Assembly: GCA_016794325.1 (NCBI GenBank) | Contig: JAEUKG010000767.1 | Location: forward strand, 1 to 34,164 | Length of the DNA: 34,164 nucleotides | Reading direction: 5' to 3' | From: Myxococcales bacterium | GTDB taxonomy: Bacteria > Myxococcota_A > Polyangia > Polyangiales > Polyangiaceae | In this document: one piece after another, positions 20,041 to 28,178 of the stretch | How the letters are laid out: each line of letters opens with the position of its first letter | Numbering within the stretch: position 1 is the first letter of the stretch | The notes under the pieces: model-generated | Databases searched by the model: none | What the model was told of the DNA's origin: nothing | Seen by the model: the letters and a program-made list of their open reading frames with translations, nothing else | Translations under genes and position numbers: made by a program

Positions 20041-21447
20041 TCAGCTCACCGCGACCGGGTCGGGGGTGGAGGCGCGCTCCACCCCCCCGCGGGCGGCGGG
20101 CTCGGGCCGCCGCAGCGACGGGACTCCCGAGGACCGGGTGAACGACTCGCCGCCGCCGCGCTCGGTGATGAGCCGCGCCCCGCGCTTGTACGAGAAGTAC
20201 GACCACGCCCAGGTGAAGAGCACGACGAAGCGGTTGCGGAAGCCGATGAGGAACAAGAGGTGGACGAACAGCCACGCGAGCCACGCGAGGAAGCCGCGCA
20301 GGCGCATCCGCCCCGTCATCGCGATGGCGCGGCTGCGGCCGATGGTCGCCATCGTCCCCTTGTCGACGTAGGCGAACGGCTCGCGATCGCCCTTCGCCTT
20401 GGCGCGGGCGATGACCTCGGCGACGTACCGACCCTGCTGCATCGCCACCGGGCATAGGCCAGGCAGCGGCTTGCCGGGCGCCTCCTCGAGGTGCGCCATG
20501 TCGCCGATGGCGAACGCCTCCGGGTGCCCGGGGATGCTCGCGTCGCGCTCGACGATGACCCGCCCCATTCTGTCGAGCGGGACCCCCAGCGTCTCCGCGA
20601 GGCGCGTGCCTCGCACCCCCGCGCCCCAGAGCACGGTGCGAGCCGCGACGCGCCGCGTGCCGTCGAGCTCGACCCCGCCCTCGTCGATGGTGGTGACGCG
20701 GCCCGTCTCGACCTCGACGCCGAGCTCGGCGAGCTGCTCCTTGGCCGACTCCGAGAGCTCCTCGGGGAACGCGGCGAGGATGCGCGGGCCGGCCTCCACG
20801 AGGACGACGCGCGCCTTCTCGGGGTCGATGGTGCGGAAGTCGTGGTCGAGGACGTTGTGCGCGAGCTCGGCAATCGCGCCCGCGAGCTCGACGCCGGTGG
20901 GGCCTCCGCCGATCACGACGAAGGTGAGCAGACGCTCGCGCTCGGCGTCGTCGGTCGTCATCTCGGCGCGCTCGAAGGCGACGAGGACCCGGCGCCGGAT
21001 CTCGAGCGCGTCGTCGATCGTCTTCAACCCAGGGGCGTGCGCCTCCCACTCCTCGTGGCCGAAGTAGCTCGTCTTGGCGCCCACCGCGAGGACGAGCCAG
21101 TCGTACTCGAGCGCGTCGCCGCCCTCGAGCCGGACGCGCCGGCCGTCGAGATCGACCCCGCTCACCTCGGCGAGGAGCACGCGGGTGTTCTCTTGCGCGG
21201 AGAGCACGCCGCGGATCGGCGCCGCGATCTCCGCCGGGGACAGGCCCGCCATCGCGACCTGGTAGAGCAGCGGCTGGAAGAGGTGGTGGTTCGTGCGATC
21301 GACGACGGTGACGTCCACGTCCGCGTCCGCGAGCCCCTGCGCGCAGAGGAGCCCGCCGAACCCGCCACCGACGATGACGACTCGAGGCCGCGCCGGAATC
21401 GATGCCGACTTCACGACCGCGGACTGACCCTTCGATTTGTCGCCCAT
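20041..21447 (-). CDS. ndh: Type II NADH:quinone oxidoreductase (NDH-2)
   Basis: A 468-residue flavoprotein. The N-terminal FAD-binding Rossmann motif is VVIVGGGFGG. The NDH-2 signature NHHLFQPLLYQVAMAGLSP follows, then VLAVGAKTSYFG, a second nucleotide (NADH) motif FVVIGGGPTGVELAG, AIGDMAH (FAD ribityl contact) and CPVAMQQGRYVA (quinone/FAD end). The C-terminal hydrophobic/aromatic segment (FLAWLAWLFVHLLFLIGF) matches the membrane-anchoring region of bacterial NDH-2. It transfers electrons from NADH to quinone without proton pumping. ATG 21447 is chosen because GGAAGG lies 8 nt upstream; the ATG at 21453 is only 2 nt from that site. It follows the solute-binding operon on the same strand (69 bp) and converges on the zinc-ribbon gene. 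Confidence 0.94.
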   Translation of the reverse strand: MGDKSKGQSAVVKSASIPARPRVVIVGGGFGGLLCAQGLADADVDVTVVDRTNHHLFQPLLYQVAMAGLSPAEIAAPIRGVLSAQENTRVLLAEVSGVDLDGRRVRLEGGDALEYDWLVLAVGAKTSYFGHEEWEAHAPGLKTIDDALEIRRRVLVAFERAEMTTDDAERERLLTFVVIGGGPTGVELAGAIAELAHNVLDHDFRTIDPEKARVVLVEAGPRILAAFPEELSESAKEQLAELGVEVETGRVTTIDEGGVELDGTRRVAARTVLWGAGVRGTRLAETLGVPLDRMGRVIVERDASIPGHPEAFAIGDMAHLEEAPGKPLPGLCPVAMQQGRYVAEVIARAKAKGDREPFAYVDKGTMATIGRSRAIAMTGRMRLRGFLAWLAWLFVHLLFLIGFRNRFVVLFTWAWSYFSYKRGARLITERGGGESFTRSSGVPSLRRPEPAARGGVERASTPDPVAVS

Positions 21448-21522
21448 CCCCATGTCCTTCCGCGCGGGTATGTAGGTGCGGCGCCGCTCGAGGTCAATCG
21501 CGGCTCGCCCCCGGGCGGCGGA

Positions 21523-22719
21523 TCACTTCTGGACGGTGCGCGACCAGAGCGTGAGGAGGTTGTGGACGACGGGGCCCTCCGGGGTCTTCGCCACCGGCGG
21601 GATGTCGACCTGCACGCCGTACTGCGCGAGCTTGGTCCACGGGTTCGCCGGGTCCGCCGTCTTGACCGGGATGCTCGTGTCGCCCGGGCGGAAGCCGAGC
21701 GCGAGGGCCTGCTGCTGCACCTCCTTCGAGCGGAGGTAGTCGAGCCACTTGTGGCCCGCCTCGCGCTGCGCCGGCGTGACCCAGTCGGCCTTGAGGACGC
21801 CCGCCGGGTGGTCGCTCCAGAGCGTGGTCGCGGGGTAGTAGACGCGGAGGTGACCCCACCGGCCCTGCGCCGCCTCGAGCTGCGAGATCGCGAGGTTCTC
21901 GTACACGACCGCGATGTCGTACTTGGAGGGCCCGAAGCGCACCATCTCGGTCATGAAGGTGCCGGTGGACGGCTCGAACTTGGTGACGCCCTTCTCGATG
22001 TCCTTCATGTACGCCTGGTACTCGGGCTTCATGAGGTCGCCGACGTCGAGGGTGGGCTTGCCGTAGTACTCGAGCGACATGAGGTACAGGGCCTGGAGGC
22101 CCGAGTTCGACTTGGTGGGGTCGGTGTGACCGAGCTTCATGAAGCCCCACTCGGTCTTGCCGCCGATGGAGGGCCAGCCCTTGTTGGACGCGATCTCCTT
22201 CTGGATGGTCTTCCACGAGATCTTGCCGTTCGCCGACTTGAGGAGCACCTGCGCGCGGTCTTCCCAGATGACGAAGACGAGGGGCGTGATGACGAGCGAC
22301 TGCGGGGCCTCGTCGCCGGCGCCGAAGAGGTCGCCCTTGCCCTTGGTCTTCCAGTCCGAGATCGTCATCTGCATGATGAGCGAGTCGGCGGGGCTGAAGA
22401 TCGTCGGCTTGTCCTTCTCGTCGACGATCGACTGGGCGGCGTCGAGCGAGCCCTTGCCGATCAGGGTGAGCTTGATCTCCGGGTGGTCGGCCCGGAACTT
22501 CACCGCGGCCTGGTCGATCCAGTCCTTCTTGTCGGTGCTGTAGATCATCGTGACCTCGACCACGTTCGCGGGCGGCTTGGCGCTCCCGCTGCCGGAGGCC
22601 GACGCCGAGGCGCTCGGGCCCGCCTTGTCGCCGCCGTCCTTCGTCAACGCGAACTTCGCGACGACGATGCCGACGATGGCGACGACGAACAGCGCGACGA
22701 TGATGATCTTGGTCTTCAA
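21523..22719 (-). CDS. Membrane-anchored extracellular solute-binding protein
   Basis: A 398-residue protein starting at TTG 22719, with a strong Shine-Dalgarno (AAGGAGGAGGG) upstream. An N-terminal hydrophobic helix (residues ~4-22) without a lipobox Cys suggests an uncleaved anchor. An Ser/Ala/Gly linker follows, then a type 2 periplasmic-binding-protein fold (VTMIYSTDKKDWID, FSPADSLIMQ, LVITPLVFVIW). Late motifs YPATTLWSDHP and QALALGFRPGDTSIPV are nearly duplicated in the N-terminal half of the VWA protein encoded at 23502-25241, so the two are paralogues. The FSPADS pocket and general fold resemble the molybdate/sulfate/iron-type SBP_bac_11 group. No permease or ATPase gene adjoins it, so a sensory or scaffold role is as likely as transport. 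Ligand unknown. Confidence 0.88.
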   Translation of the reverse strand: MKTKIIIVALFVVAIVGIVVAKFALTKDGGDKAGPSASASASGSGSAKPPANVVEVTMIYSTDKKDWIDQAAVKFRADHPEIKLTLIGKGSLDAAQSIVDEKDKPTIFSPADSLIMQMTISDWKTKGKGDLFGAGDEAPQSLVITPLVFVIWEDRAQVLLKSANGKISWKTIQKEIASNKGWPSIGGKTEWGFMKLGHTDPTKSNSGLQALYLMSLEYYGKPTLDVGDLMKPEYQAYMKDIEKGVTKFEPSTGTFMTEMVRFGPSKYDIAVVYENLAISQLEAAQGRWGHLRVYYPATTLWSDHPAGVLKADWVTPAQREAGHKWLDYLRSKEVQQQALALGFRPGDTSIPVKTADPANPWTKLAQYGVQVDIPPVAKTPEGPVVHNLLTLWSRTVQK

Positions 22720-22737
22720 CGACGAATCCCTCCTCCT

Positions 22738-23502
22738 TCACGCCCCATGGGCCACGTCTCCGAGGCTCACGAGGGTCTCTTCGAAGCTCTGAATCTCCAC
22801 GTTCATGCGATCGAGCTCGTCCTTCACGTCGCCGGTGAGCTGATCCATCGCCTGGGCGTCGAGCGCGCGCATGCGCACGATCTTGGCCGGGAGCGCGTCC
22901 ATCGTCGCCGCGATGCTGAGCAGGCTCGCCGCGATGCGCTCCTTGGCGGCGAAGAGGTCGTTGACGGTGGCGAGGTGCTGGGCGCGCGCCGAGCGAGCGG
23001 CCTCGTACTGGGCGCGAGCCTCCTTGTCGCGCGCGGCCTTGGCGCGGAGGTCGAGCGCGTCGACGTCCTTCTGGAGCTGCGCCGGGTCCACCGTCGCGAG
23101 GTACTTCGCGATGTCCTCGGCGCGGACCGCGAGCTTCGACGCGCGCTCCTCGAGCTCACCGACCGACACCACCACCATCGCGAGGTGGGCCTGCACCTCG
23201 GCCGAGGTGTCGCCGAGGACGCGGTCGATCTCGCCGCGCGCCTTCTTGATGCTCTGGAGCGCGATCTTGGTGTGGGGGTCGTCGAAGTCGCTCGCGTCGG
23301 CGAGGCGGGGCCCCGACGCCTCGAGCTCCCTCTTGCCGAAGATCCCCCACGCGGTGAGCGCGGCGAGCGCGGCGCCGCCGACCGCGGCGATGGCCCACGA
23401 GTGGAGGGCGACCGCGGCGACGCCGGCGGTGCCCGCGACCACGATGTTGGTCACCGTGGTCGCTGCCTTCACGAGGCTCTTCTTGTTCGGCTTGTCGCTC
23501 AT
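22738..23502 (-). CDS. Membrane coiled-coil protein in solute-binding/VWA operon
   Basis: A 254-residue protein. Residues ~10-52 contain two short hydrophobic segments (VTNIVVAGTAGVAAVALHSW and AIAAVGGAALAALTAWGIFG) that can form a hairpin in the membrane. The rest is a long charged helical region with coiled-coil heptads (VGELEERASKLAVRAEDIAK, VDALDLRAKAARDKEARAQYE), probably cytoplasmic. Its ATG overlaps the TGA of the VWA gene by one base (TGATG), which indicates translational coupling; the next solute-binding gene follows with an 18-bp gap. I considered XpaC-like proteins, which accompany TelA and VWA genes elsewhere, but the signature segments are not visible. Family not identified; it could link the exported binding domains to the cytoplasm. 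Confidence 0.85.
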   Translation of the reverse strand: MSDKPNKKSLVKAATTVTNIVVAGTAGVAAVALHSWAIAAVGGAALAALTAWGIFGKRELEASGPRLADASDFDDPHTKIALQSIKKARGEIDRVLGDTSAEVQAHLAMVVVSVGELEERASKLAVRAEDIAKYLATVDPAQLQKDVDALDLRAKAARDKEARAQYEAARSARAQHLATVNDLFAAKERIAASLLSIAATMDALPAKIVRMRALDAQAMDQLTGDVKDELDRMNVEIQSFEETLVSLGDVAHGA

Positions 23503-25241
23503 CAGAAGAAGGAGGCCATCTCCAGGTAGACGTCCTTGATGGTGTCGACGTTGCCCTTGGCGCTCGTCCCGCGCGCCGACTCGGCGATGTCCGACAGGAT
23601 GCTCGTCTCGGCGCCGGCGCCGTAGGCGATGGTGAACACCTTGACCGGGGCGTCCTCCTTCGGGAACTTCGCCTTCAGCGCCGCGAGCGGCATCTTGCTG
23701 TTTTCGTCCTTGCCGTCGGTCATCACCACCACCGCGTGGATCTGGTGGGGGTTCGTCTTGGCGCGCGCGGCCGCGATGTCGTACGCGGCGGCGATGGCGT
23801 CGTAGAGCGCGGTGCCGCCGTCGGCGATCGTCATGTCGATGCGGCTGAGGGCGGTCTGGCGCTGCGTCTGCAGGCGGTTCGGCCCGACCGCGGGGTAGAC
23901 CTGGTTGTCGAAGAACATCAGCGTCACCTCGTCGCGATCGGCGAGGGCGTTGACGAAGCTCTTGGCGCCGGCCTTGGCCTCCTCGAGCGGCTTGCCGCGC
24001 ATGCTCCCGGACTTGTCGAAGACGAACAGGACGTCGGCCCCCTTCTTGTTGTCGTTCCAGACCTTGAGGAGCTTCTCGAGCACCTTGGCGTCGGGCACGG
24101 GCAGGAGCGTCTGCGGCTGCTTCGGATCCACCCCGTGGGCGGCGTCGATCGGCGCCCCCACCGGGATCTTGGGGTCGGCCGGGCGGAAGCCAAGGGCGAG
24201 GGCTCGCTCCTGCGCCGGCTTGTCGCGGAGGAACGCCGCGAGCTGGTCGGCGGCGGCCTTCTCGTCGCCCGACACCCACGGCGCGTCGAGCACGCTGTAG
24301 GGGTGGTCCGACCAGAACGTGCCCTCGGTCGGGTAGATCGCGACGAGCGGCATCGGCGGGTTCTTGCCGTCGGCCTCGACGACGAGGTTCTCGTAGAGGA
24401 CCGCGGCCGAGAGGTACGACGGCCCGCGCGCGAGCATCTTGTCGGAGAAGAACCCGGTCGACTTGCCGTAGTGGACGATCGTGTCCTCGACGTCGGCGAT
24501 GAACTGCTGGGTGGGCTTGGCGTCGAGGTCGGCGAGGGTGAGCTCGCGCTGCTTCTTCGCCCCTGCGTACGCCTCCGCAAGGATGGCCTGGTAGCCTGAG
24601 TTCGAGAACTCGGGGTGGGTGTGGGCGAACTTGAAGCGCCCCCACTCCGGGGCGCCGCGGGTGCCCCAGCCCTTCGGATCGGTCGCGACCTTCATGAGGT
24701 CGGCCCAGGAGATCTGCTTCGTCGGCCAGCCGAGCGCCTCGGCCATCGGCTTCCACATCGCGATCACGATGGGGGAGAGCACCAGCGGCTCACCCGCCTT
24801 CGCGAGCGGCTTCGTGTTGCCCGGCTTCTGCATCCAGAAGTCGTTGAGGAGCGTCACGTAGAGGCCGGAGGCGGGGCTGAAGACGTGAGGCTTGACCGAG
24901 CCGTCGAGGATGGCCTGCATCGCCTCGCCCGAGCCCATCGCCTTGAGCTGCACCTTGATCGGCTTGCCCGACGGCGTCTTCGGCGACGTCGCCTCGAAGG
25001 CCTTGGTCTGCTCTTCGAGCCACGTCTTCTTCTCGCTGCCGTACGCGACCAGCAGGGTCACCCCCGCGCCCTTCGGCGCGCTCGCGGTCCCGCTCGCCCC
25101 ACTCGCCCCGGTGCCGCTCGCGTCGGCGCCCGCGCCCTTCTTGTCCTTGTCCTCGCACCCGCCCGCGAAGATGGGCGCGACGGCGAGGAGGGCGACGGCT
25201 ACGGCGCGCTGAAGAGTGGTGTGGGTTCGAGTGTTGTTCAT
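23502..25241 (-). CDS. Solute-binding domain fused to VWA domain, lipoprotein
   Basis: A 579-residue protein. The signal ends AGGC (Cys29), with an Asp/Gly/Ala/Ser tether. Residues ~60-375 are a periplasmic binding-protein domain (VTLLVAYGSEKKTWLEEQTK, FSPASGLYV, IYPTEGTFWSDHPYSVL, ALALGFRPADPKIPV), paralogous to the 21523-22719 product. Residues ~403-579 are a von Willebrand A domain with an intact metal-ion-dependent adhesion site: Asp409-x-Ser411-x-Ser413 (FDKSGSM), Thr477 (DGGTALYDA) and Asp509 (VVMTDGKDEN). A lipid-anchored ligand-binding module is thus joined to a protein-binding module, both outside the cytoplasm. 'Substrate-binding and VWA' fusions are annotated in actinobacteria, but no function is known to me. 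First gene of a three-gene operon. Confidence 0.92.
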   Translation of the reverse strand: MNNTRTHTTLQRAVAVALLAVAPIFAGGCEDKDKKGAGADASGTGASGASGTASAPKGAGVTLLVAYGSEKKTWLEEQTKAFEATSPKTPSGKPIKVQLKAMGSGEAMQAILDGSVKPHVFSPASGLYVTLLNDFWMQKPGNTKPLAKAGEPLVLSPIVIAMWKPMAEALGWPTKQISWADLMKVATDPKGWGTRGAPEWGRFKFAHTHPEFSNSGYQAILAEAYAGAKKQRELTLADLDAKPTQQFIADVEDTIVHYGKSTGFFSDKMLARGPSYLSAAVLYENLVVEADGKNPPMPLVAIYPTEGTFWSDHPYSVLDAPWVSGDEKAAADQLAAFLRDKPAQERALALGFRPADPKIPVGAPIDAAHGVDPKQPQTLLPVPDAKVLEKLLKVWNDNKKGADVLFVFDKSGSMRGKPLEEAKAGAKSFVNALADRDEVTLMFFDNQVYPAVGPNRLQTQRQTALSRIDMTIADGGTALYDAIAAAYDIAAARAKTNPHQIHAVVVMTDGKDENSKMPLAALKAKFPKEDAPVKVFTIAYGAGAETSILSDIAESARGTSAKGNVDTIKDVYLEMASFF

Positions 25242-26433: not shown

Positions 26434-27561
26434 TCAGGGCTTCTCGACCTCGATGGTGAGGTCGACGGCGCGGCTGGGCACGTGCACGTCGGTCAGTGGG
26501 ACGACGTTGACCCGCTCGTTGCGAGCGGCGAAGAACGCGGTGACGCGGTCGAGATCCTCCTTCACCGCCGATCGCGAGAAGACGGTGCCGGGGCGCACCT
26601 TGACGACGCCCGCGAGGGCGCGCTCGTGCGCCGCCGCGAGCTTCGTGAAGCGGAGCGCGCGGAGCTTGAAGACGTCTCCCTCGTCGACCTTGAAGGTCAC
26701 CGTCACCTGCCCGTCCGGCGTGGCGTCGGCCTTGCTGCTCACCGCCGCCTGGATCATCCCGGAGTCGTAGTAGCGCGTGCTGATCCGCATCTCGGCCAGC
26801 GTGAGCAGATCGGCGTCGAACGGCTTGCCGAGCGGCAGCGCCGCGGCGGCGGTGATCTCGGCGGCGCTCACCCGCTTCTGCCCCGTCACCGCGACCTTGG
26901 TGAAGCGCCACTGGGGGCCCTCGGTCAGGTCGAAGCGCACGCGCACCGAGCCGGGCGCGCTCTCGGCGGTGCTCGTCTTCACCTCGCAGACGGTGTGGCC
27001 GCGCGACCGACACTCGCTCGAGAGCGCCTCCACGACGGTGTGGATCGCGACGGGATCGAGCGGCGCGCCCGCGGGGATCGGCGGCGAGCTCGGCTTGGCG
27101 CCGGTCGACCCTTCGATGACGACCTCGCTCACGACGGGGCGCTCGCCGAGGGCGTACGTCACGACGACTCCGGAGGGCGCCTTCTCGGCGTACGCCGCCA
27201 CCTCGCCGAAGCGCCCGAGCCTCGCCAAGGTCACGAGATCCGCGCTCACCGAGGTGGTGCGCAGCGGGCGCCCTTGGCCCACCGTGATCGCCTGCCGGGC
27301 CTGGTCGACGCCCGCCGCGCTGAGCGCCGGCTTGCCCGCGAGCGGGAGCACGCACACGAGGGCCACGGTCTCCCCGTCGTAGCTCGCGTCGCTCGGCGGC
27401 GCGCCCGACGGCGGGGTGAACGACGCCGGGCACACGGGGCCGGCGGGGGCTGCGGCGCTCGCGCTCGGCGGCGGCTTCACGGGGGCGCGCGGCGGCGGCT
27501 CGCCCGCGGGGTCGCAGCCAGCGACGGCGCCGAGCGCGAGGGCGACGGCGAGGCGCCTCAT
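26434..27561 (-). CDS. POTRA-domain lipoprotein without beta-barrel
   Basis: A 375-residue protein. The signal ends VAGC (Cys16), followed by a Pro/Ala tether. From ~residue 80 there are about three POTRA-like repeats with the usual pattern: beta-strand, helix, then a turn such as VTGQKRVSAAEITAAAALPLGKPFDADLLTLAEMRI, with RYYDSGMIQAAV, FKVDEGDVFKLRALRF and closing DLTIEVEKP. In BamA/TamA proteins such repeats precede a membrane barrel and recognise unfolded outer-membrane proteins. Here the protein ends after the last POTRA, so no barrel is present; lipid anchoring replaces it. It is translationally coupled to the SurA-like gene (ATGA overlap). It likely acts as an accessory adaptor in outer-membrane protein assembly, which is inference. 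Confidence 0.88.
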   Translation of the reverse strand: MRRLAVALALGAVAGCDPAGEPPPRAPVKPPPSASAAAPAGPVCPASFTPPSGAPPSDASYDGETVALVCVLPLAGKPALSAAGVDQARQAITVGQGRPLRTTSVSADLVTLARLGRFGEVAAYAEKAPSGVVVTYALGERPVVSEVVIEGSTGAKPSSPPIPAGAPLDPVAIHTVVEALSSECRSRGHTVCEVKTSTAESAPGSVRVRFDLTEGPQWRFTKVAVTGQKRVSAAEITAAAALPLGKPFDADLLTLAEMRISTRYYDSGMIQAAVSSKADATPDGQVTVTFKVDEGDVFKLRALRFTKLAAAHERALAGVVKVRPGTVFSRSAVKEDLDRVTAFFAARNERVNVVPLTDVHVPSRAVDLTIEVEKP

Positions 27562-28178
27562 CGGACCTCCACGTACGCGCCGCGGCGAAGCTCGGCGATC
27601 ACCTCGTCGCGCTTCTTGGAGAGCGCCTCCATCCGCGCGCGATCGGCCTCGGCGGCGGCGCGCGGGTCCTTGGCCTTGCCCGGCGGCTCCGGCCTGAAGA
27701 GCGCCGGGTCGAGCCGGGGGCGCACCTCGAGCATCACCCACTTGCCCTCGAGCAGCTGGCGTCGGAGCTCGGCGTGGTACTCGGGCAGCGTGATGCCCTG
27801 CCGGCGGACCTCGGCCTCGAGGTCCGCGACCGGGATCCCGACGTTCTTGGCGATCGACTCCATCGCGCTCGCGACCTCGGCGTCGGAGACGGTGATGCGG
27901 AGCTTGTCGGCGCGCTTCTGGATCAGGCGCTCCTCGATCATCACGTCGCGCACCCGAGCGTGGAGGAGCTCGAGCGCGTCCGGGGGCGCGTTCTTGGGGA
28001 GCTGGGCCGCCATCGGCCGCGCACGCGCGACGATCTCGGACCGCAAGATCGGCCCACCGTCGACGATCGCGACCACCCGGTCGAGCAGGACGACGCCGCC
28101 CGATTCCGCCCGCGCCGGGCCGGCGAGCGAGGCAGCGACGAAGGCGGCGGCAAGGAAAGGGGCGAGCGAGCTCCGCAT
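27558..28178 (-). CDS. SurA-like periplasmic chaperone, N-domain only
   Basis: A 206-residue protein with a cleavable signal (cut near ARA-ESGG). Residues ~31-160 match the SurA N-terminal chaperone domain: LDRVVAIVDGGPILRSEIVARA, DVMIEERLIQKRADKL, ITVSDAEVASAMESIAK, and GITLPEYHAELRRQLL. E. coli SurA continues with two parvulin PPIase domains, which are absent here. The C-terminal ~40 residues are charged and helical, probably completing the chaperone core as the C-terminal helix does in SurA. It is predicted to escort unfolded outer-membrane proteins. A TACGCT box lies 7 nt upstream of ATG 28178. Co-translated with the POTRA lipoprotein. Confidence 0.88.
   Translation of the reverse strand: MRSSLAPFLAAAFVAASLAGPARAESGGVVLLDRVVAIVDGGPILRSEIVARARPMAAQLPKNAPPDALELLHARVRDVMIEERLIQKRADKLRITVSDAEVASAMESIAKNVGIPVADLEAEVRRQGITLPEYHAELRRQLLEGKWVMLEVRPRLDPALFRPEPPGKAKDPRAAAEADRARMEALSKKRDEVIAELRRGAYVEVR

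Follow-up and report, generated by a model that had tools for sequence, protein, structure and literature searches.

A conserved solute-binding, VWA and membrane coiled-coil gene set with a possible link to PspA-based membrane maintenance

A three-gene unit and its conservation

What purpose do two solute-binding proteins serve when no transporter is encoded beside them? The question is raised by three minus-strand genes in a 34,164-nucleotide stretch of DNA from a Myxococcales bacterium (contig JAEUKG010000767.1, assembly GCA_016794325.1; hereafter the window). Gene 1 encodes a solute-binding protein (SBP) module fused to a VWA domain (SBP-VWA), gene 2 a membrane coiled-coil protein (CC), and gene 3 a second solute-binding protein (SBP2). 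In our best reading, the trio is an extracytoplasmic oxyanion-type sensor tied via CC to membrane maintenance by PspA, the bacterial ESCRT-III homologue and membrane-repair protein; the association with PspA was observed in several phyla and the mechanism is proposed. We give about even chances to the view that a widespread system, of which the trio would be the extracytoplasmic and membrane part, couples ligand binding outside the cell to PspA on the inner face of the membrane.

Scanning of bacterial and archaeal genomes for relatives of gene 1 yielded 80 loci, spread over many phyla. Counts were made on 65 SBP-VWA loci flanked on each side by 2.5 kb of DNA or more, from Myxococcota, Chloroflexota, Verrucomicrobiota/Planctomycetota, Acidobacteriota, Proteobacteria and Actinomycetota (labels were taken from record titles and are doubtful for some metagenome bins). 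Members in the flanking DNA were found by profile searches, so that a diverged member may be present where none was detected. On the same strand and within 5.5 kb, SBP2 was found at 54 of the 65 loci, CC at 53, PspA at 15 and an AAA ATPase at 6. The original prediction, made from the window alone, had called for such a neighbourhood comparison, and the trio was indeed kept together in many phyla, with SBP2 and CC both present at 47 loci. The set stays together while its gene order varies by phylum. The layout is SBP-VWA, CC, SBP2 in Myxococcota and SBP2, SBP-VWA, CC in Chloroflexota; Actinomycetota have the latter order with PspA after CC. Verrucomicrobiota, Acidobacteriota and Proteobacteria have SBP-VWA, SBP2, then PspA, CC and AAA ATPase, with not all five at every locus. 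Judged from these neighbourhoods, the three genes form a conserved unit that is shared by at least six phyla.

Within Myxococcota the set is patchy, and a strong SBP2 match was obtained in 11 of 97 relatives. Among the 198 Actinomycetota genomes searched, SBP-VWA was found in nine, that of locus L114 included. Annotated records include Miltoncostaea oceani (CC E value 5e-31) and Streptomyces sp. NBC_00564 (8e-19), in which CC is a "hypothetical protein" encoded directly after SBP-VWA. Three Chloroflexota loci (L097, L103 and L115) carry a second SBP-VWA-like gene upstream of the set, divergently transcribed.

Linkage to PspA and AAA ATPase genes

Clusters with PspA occur in Actinomycetota, Verrucomicrobiota, Acidobacteriota and Proteobacteria and, at one locus, in Chloroflexota; several of them also have an AAA ATPase. 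Those of L065 and Granulicella aggregans (L094) each combine SBP-VWA, SBP2, CC and PspA. The cluster protein matched PF04012 (PspA_IM30) with E values of 8e-13 in Acidobacteriota (L065), 2e-9 in Alphaproteobacteria (L116) and 9e-30 in an actinobacterium (L114); the proteins of L065 and L116 scored above the Pfam gathering score. All seven Actinomycetota genomes with a strong SBP-VWA match had exactly one PspA gene, and it stood beside the trio; the two with a weaker match did not show this pattern. At L065, L093, L116 and L117, the linked PspA was likewise the sole PspA found in the genome. The original suggestion of a self-contained system is not supported: in these phyla PspA and in several cases an AAA ATPase lie inside the cluster. 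The AAA ATPase of the relatives matched PF00004 and VCP-like chains and is of the classical VCP/Cdc48 type; profile comparison detected no inactive AAA copy in its N-terminal half.

Two further Myxococcota loci (L164:657-7493 and L165:4879-13353) combine PspA, an anchored NMT1-OmpA binding protein, ATP-binding cassette (ABC) importer genes, a CC-family protein and an AAA ATPase. Pfam searches confirmed the ABC ATPase in L164 and the permease in L165. CC thus accompanies PspA in two settings, with an ABC importer or with the VWA-fused pair in the importer's place.

Sigma-54 promoters were not enriched upstream (5 of 88 against 3.1 expected), and a sigma-54 promoter shared with classical psp operons was rejected on this ground. 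At a single alphaproteobacterial locus (L117:3590-6768), genes for a histidine kinase and an NtrC-type regulator lie directly upstream of PspA and SBP-VWA, and a sigma-54-like site, TGGCATCGCCGTTGCA, precedes PspA, an arrangement reminiscent of PspF control.

Two ancient solute-binding modules, one with a VWA domain

Both solute-binding modules matched PF13531 (SBP_bac_11) above the gathering score, with E values of 8e-18 for gene 1 and 5e-16 for SBP2. Pfam thereby places both in the SBP_bac_11/type II solute-binding fold, and a fold match was obtained for gene 1: in its AlphaFold2 model (mean pLDDT 89.9, pTM 0.85), the binding domain was nearest to sulfate-binding proteins (Z 27.5 for Xanthomonas Sbp, 26.9 for 1sbp). 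SBP2 also matched the sulfate-binding protein by sequence profile. The two modules share 33% identity over 363 residues (E value 2e-49) and the blocks WSDHP and ALALGFRP, as had been noticed beforehand; on this alignment they are true paralogues.

A tree of 114 binding modules falls into two halves (100% support), one with all 59 VWA-fused modules and the other with all 55 SBP2 modules; the same phylum groups recur in both. Two sister groups with a matching phylum pattern indicate a duplication older than the spread of the set, after which both copies were kept. The tree thus shows SBP1 (the gene 1 module) and SBP2 to be an ancient co-inherited pair, and the retention of both copies speaks for roles that differ and depend on each other. 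SBP2-like proteins that stand alone and carry a long insertion also occur (L145, L146, L147 and L148; about 5.8-8.2 kb, open reading frames of 500-794 codons); no VWA, CC or PspA was detected near their genes.

The ligand loops are conserved: S104, S122, S213 and E284 are invariant among gene 1 homologues and T262 is nearly so. In alignments with E. coli Sbp, the GGSGK loop of Sbp fell opposite MGSGE, its SSGG loop opposite SNSG (in the SBP2 profile) and its AWEN strand opposite LYEN; these alignments are weak (36 and 55% probability). The matching loops in Sbp bind oxyanions. The loops of gene 1 and SBP2 may do the same; since the Sbp alignments are weak, the ligand class is a guess. Ligand sensing outside the cell is a plausible role for the trio. 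The nearest solved folds, Sbp/SubI (PDB 5um2, 1sbp and 6ddn), resemble the modules in structure (Z 26 to 27.5) and in the aligned GSG loop, SNSG-type loop and (W/Y)EN strand. They differ in sequence (about 15 to 18% identity) and in setting, since the modules of the trio are VWA-fused or membrane-anchored and have no transporter genes.

The VWA domain of gene 1 matched PF00092 with an E value of 2e-18, above the gathering score. It carries the DxSxS...T...D metal site, and the intact metal ion-dependent adhesion site (MIDAS) that was predicted from the window proved to be conserved, with D409, S411, S413, T477 and D509 identical in 59 of 59 aligned homologues. A VWA domain with an intact MIDAS usually mediates protein contacts, and among the nearest PDB relatives many are adhesion, matrix or receptor-type proteins. 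These features would also suit a surface scaffold, in which the VWA domain joins the modules into a surface or periplasmic structure for adhesion or assembly, the binding folds are structural and PspA is a co-regulated envelope neighbour. The near or full invariance of the five ligand-loop residues goes beyond what a scaffold needs, and the sole PspA of several genomes lies inside the cluster; we therefore regard a scaffold as unlikely.

ABC transporter genes are rarely nearby

The neighbours of the trio tested in the window (about 17.5-30.3 kb) included no ABC permease, ABC ATPase or two-component gene, in agreement with the original prediction. An ABC ATPase lay within 8 kb of 5 of the 80 related loci and adjoined the set at none. 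The permease and ABC ATPase genes that an importer would have next to its SBP gene are thus missing from the tested window neighbourhood. The original prediction had named two patterns that would speak against it, a consistent place beside ABC genes and rare co-occurrence of the three genes, and neither was seen.

These counts bear on ordinary solute capture, in which both SBPs would hand a sulfate-like solute over to an ABC importer whose genes lie elsewhere and the VWA domain and CC would be docking accessories. The sulfate-binding protein fold, the conserved ligand loops and the importer in the paralogous CC/PspA locus are all in its favor. The scarcity of ABC ATPases near the set argues against it, and importers lack such features as paired, separately conserved modules, a fusion to VWA and a link to PspA. 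We consider solute capture improbable, slightly more so than a surface scaffold.

The membrane coiled-coil protein CC

Gene 2 had been described as a membrane-hairpin coiled-coil protein, and hydropathy and the predicted structure (mean pLDDT 88.3) agree: a short N-terminal membrane hairpin is followed by long helices. Basic residues precede the first of the two membrane helices, the loop between them is very short, and the long helices lie past the second. A short-looped hairpin puts both ends on one side of the membrane, and with the basic residues ahead of the first helix the helical part is most likely cytoplasmic, on the same side as PspA. The original prediction let the VWA domain report by contacts through the coiled-coil protein; direct contact between the two is unlikely, since the predicted location of the coiled coil is the cytoplasm and the SBPs are outside.

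CC homologues were found in several phyla, and the Myxococcota and Chloroflexota proteins are homologous (hhalign 99.5%). Of 285 Myxococcota genomes, 38 had a CC match of any strength, and in about a dozen the match was close. CC had no family in Pfam (over cut-off), NCBIfam or PADLOC and nothing informative in PHROGs. It did not match the Pfam XpaC family at E values up to 1, a search that involved no profile-profile comparison. A PspA-like fold for CC was rejected, as both a profile comparison with the cluster PspA and a Foldseek search of the PDB (E values up to 0.001) came back empty; a distant link is still possible. Two larger open reading frames (L141:6705-8048 and L142:6433-7848) have a C-terminal part that matches CC behind what appear to be several membrane helices, with no SBP-VWA nearby, and may represent a further branch of the CC family.

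A possible route from ligand to PspA

For ligand binding, complex formation and the path and direction of the signal, we infer the following scheme. Gene 1 and SBP2 would bind a small anion, probably an oxyanion or a phospho or sulfo compound, and form a complex via the metal-dependent VWA domain. The SBP complex could engage CC at its membrane hairpin, either directly or by way of the SBP2 anchor, and the cytoplasmic helices of CC would then recruit, hold or release PspA. Vps4 acts on ESCRT-III; by analogy, the VCP/Cdc48-like AAA ATPase present in some lineages might remodel the PspA polymer. The set may equally report the state of PspA outward or keep PspA in reserve. The most specific version, ligand-gated control of PspA from outside to inside, in which VWA-joined sulfate-binding-type receptors set PspA assembly or AAA-driven disassembly via CC, is put forward tentatively, at clearly less than even chances.

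Several observations weigh against a coupling of the trio to PspA. PspA was beside the set in none of 21 Myxococcota clusters of the window type and in 1 of 12 Chloroflexota clusters. The presence of PspA elsewhere in a genome says little because PspA is common. Homology between the window CC and the coiled-coil family of Verrucomicrobiota and Acidobacteriota is weaker (hhalign 73 to 88%), and the CC model had no Foldseek match in the PDB at E values up to 0.001. The set is also incomplete in places: SBP-VWA and CC occur without SBP2 in a Myxococcota variant (L149-L151; also L152, on a short contig), and SBP-VWA stands alone at L068, L100, L139 and L140. By eye, the next gene at L149-L151 looks alkaline-phosphatase-like.

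In the window itself, PF04012 matched none of the trio proteins or tested neighbours, so that the PspA gene which marks the cluster of a phage-shock system was not found there. The window genome does encode PspA, in two genes that lie on contigs other than this one, and PspA was present in all Myxococcota genomes tested. Because its PspA is encoded elsewhere, a coupling to PspA in the window organism would have to be read from its relatives. The trio without PspA in Myxococcota and nearly all Chloroflexota would suit the signalling first suggested for it, in which the SBPs sense a ligand and report via CC to another partner, PspA being uninvolved. In other phyla PspA is a cluster member, in all seven Actinomycetota genomes it stands beside the trio, and a CC relative occurs in the PspA/AAA loci; we give signalling without PspA a low probability, similar to that of a scaffold. 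An involvement of PspA remains our preferred reading.

Relation to known systems

Ter/TelA sets have a VWA and coiled-coil architecture that resembles the trio, and a link to tellurite-type genes was raised in the original prediction. The VWA domain would then act as TerY and CC as a TelA/XpaC-like protein in resistance to tellurite or another toxic anion, which the anion-type binding fold would fit. TelA (PF05816) was found neither in the window genome (88% complete) nor in ten Actinomycetota genomes with the set, in searches whose controls were positive in B. subtilis and others, and none of the three proteins matched a Ter-type family. We consider this explanation very improbable. A defence system and a phage origin were also rejected: PADLOC gave no match at a meaningful level, and PHROGs gave weak VWA matches alone.

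An operon class with PspA, a two-part AAA ATPase, an ABC importer and a PBPB-OmpA protein has been described (Ravi et al., 2024, mSystems, PMC11237479). As far as the passages on this class describe it, the L164 and L165 loci match it and additionally hold a CC relative; CC is not mentioned in those passages, nor VWA in the main text of the paper. Our clusters resemble these operons in bringing together PspA, an AAA ATPase whose N-terminal part lacks a P-loop match, and an anchored extracytoplasmic SBP. Unlike the operons as described there, the trio lacks both a permease and an ABC ATPase, and it includes an SBP fused to a VWA domain as well as a second SBP. A full-text search of the literature, the supplementary tables of Ravi et al. 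excepted, turned up no account of the SBP-VWA/CC/PspA set; part of its context may already stand in those supplements.

The NCBI name "substrate-binding and VWA domain-containing protein" (Streptomyces WP_332880827.1) covers the same architecture with a CC homologue next to it (E value 8e-19); it is a name alone, and the record assigns no partner genes or mechanism. Modules of a MoxR-type AAA ATPase and a VWA protein (PMC5898192) are similar in that some relatives of the trio have a VWA protein with an AAA ATPase. The differences lie in the AAA ATPase, which is here of the VCP/Cdc48 type and not MoxR, and in the VWA protein, which here carries a binding module.

On this comparison, the system appears to be a variant within the PspA-associated envelope systems, and the membrane coiled-coil family, so far unnamed, is the link they share. 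To our knowledge, signalling of the membrane state to PspA-type proteins is poorly understood beyond the proteobacterial PspBC route. One cluster here unites two extracytoplasmic SBPs, a VWA domain, an unnamed CC family and PspA, in some genomes the only PspA, and probably connects outside sensing to membrane upkeep inside the cell. Named genes in cultured bacteria can now be used to probe outside-to-inside control of the bacterial ESCRT-III protein, and a family annotated as "hypothetical protein" or "substrate-binding and VWA domain-containing protein" gains a concrete context.

Gene structure and neighbours in the window

Gene calls were made from open frames and profiles. The three genes are tightly coupled, as predicted, and all reading frames are present (Table 1). 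Genes 1 and 2 overlap in a TGATG junction, and the TTG start of gene 3 lies 18 bases beyond the end of gene 2. The membrane anchoring predicted for SBP2 was borne out by one N-terminal membrane segment in the hydropathy profile. For gene 1, described as lipid-anchored, export is supported and the lipid anchor is less certain: the lipobox is weak (AGGC), and a lipobox-like motif was present in 41 of 70 homologues.

Table 1. Positions of the three genes and their parts in the window.
Feature	Positions	Strand	Remarks
Gene 1, SBP_bac_11-like solute-binding module fused to VWA domain	23502..25241	-	579 aa, exported, probable lipoprotein; PF13531 and PF00092
Gene 1 N-terminal signal with lipobox-like AGGC, residues 1-29	25155..25241	-	hydropathy peak at residues 8-31
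Gene 1 solute-binding domain, residues 63-353	24183..25055	-	PF13531; sulfate-binding protein fold
Gene 1 VWA domain with intact MIDAS, residues 403-557	23571..24035	-	PF00092
Gene 2 (CC), membrane hairpin and predicted cytoplasmic helical/coiled-coil region	22738..23502	-	254 aa, no Pfam family
Gene 2 membrane hairpin, residues about 17-54	23341..23454	-	hydropathy; model helices 17-33 and 36-63
Gene 3 (SBP2), membrane-anchored solute-binding protein	21523..22719	-	398 aa, TTG start; PF13531
Gene 3 N-terminal membrane anchor, residues about 3-23	22651..22713	-	hydropathy up to 3.06 over 19 residues
Gene 3 ribosome-binding site AAGGAGGAGG	22729..22738	-	sequence; strong site ahead of TTG start

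The tested neighbours encode a type II NADH dehydrogenase-like protein, a lipoprotein-like unknown, POTRA, SurA-like and FG-GAP/UnbV proteins and a Ser/Thr kinase; no MoxR-type AAA ATPase, as a MoxR-VWA module would have, was found among them. The NADH dehydrogenase-like gene (20041-21453) is on the same strand, 69 bases downstream of the trio. It was rejected as a fourth member, being found beside the trio solely in the nearest relative (L039). At 26434-28178, the gene for the POTRA-domain protein adjoins that for a SurA N-terminal-like protein; together the two hint at assembly of outer-membrane proteins.

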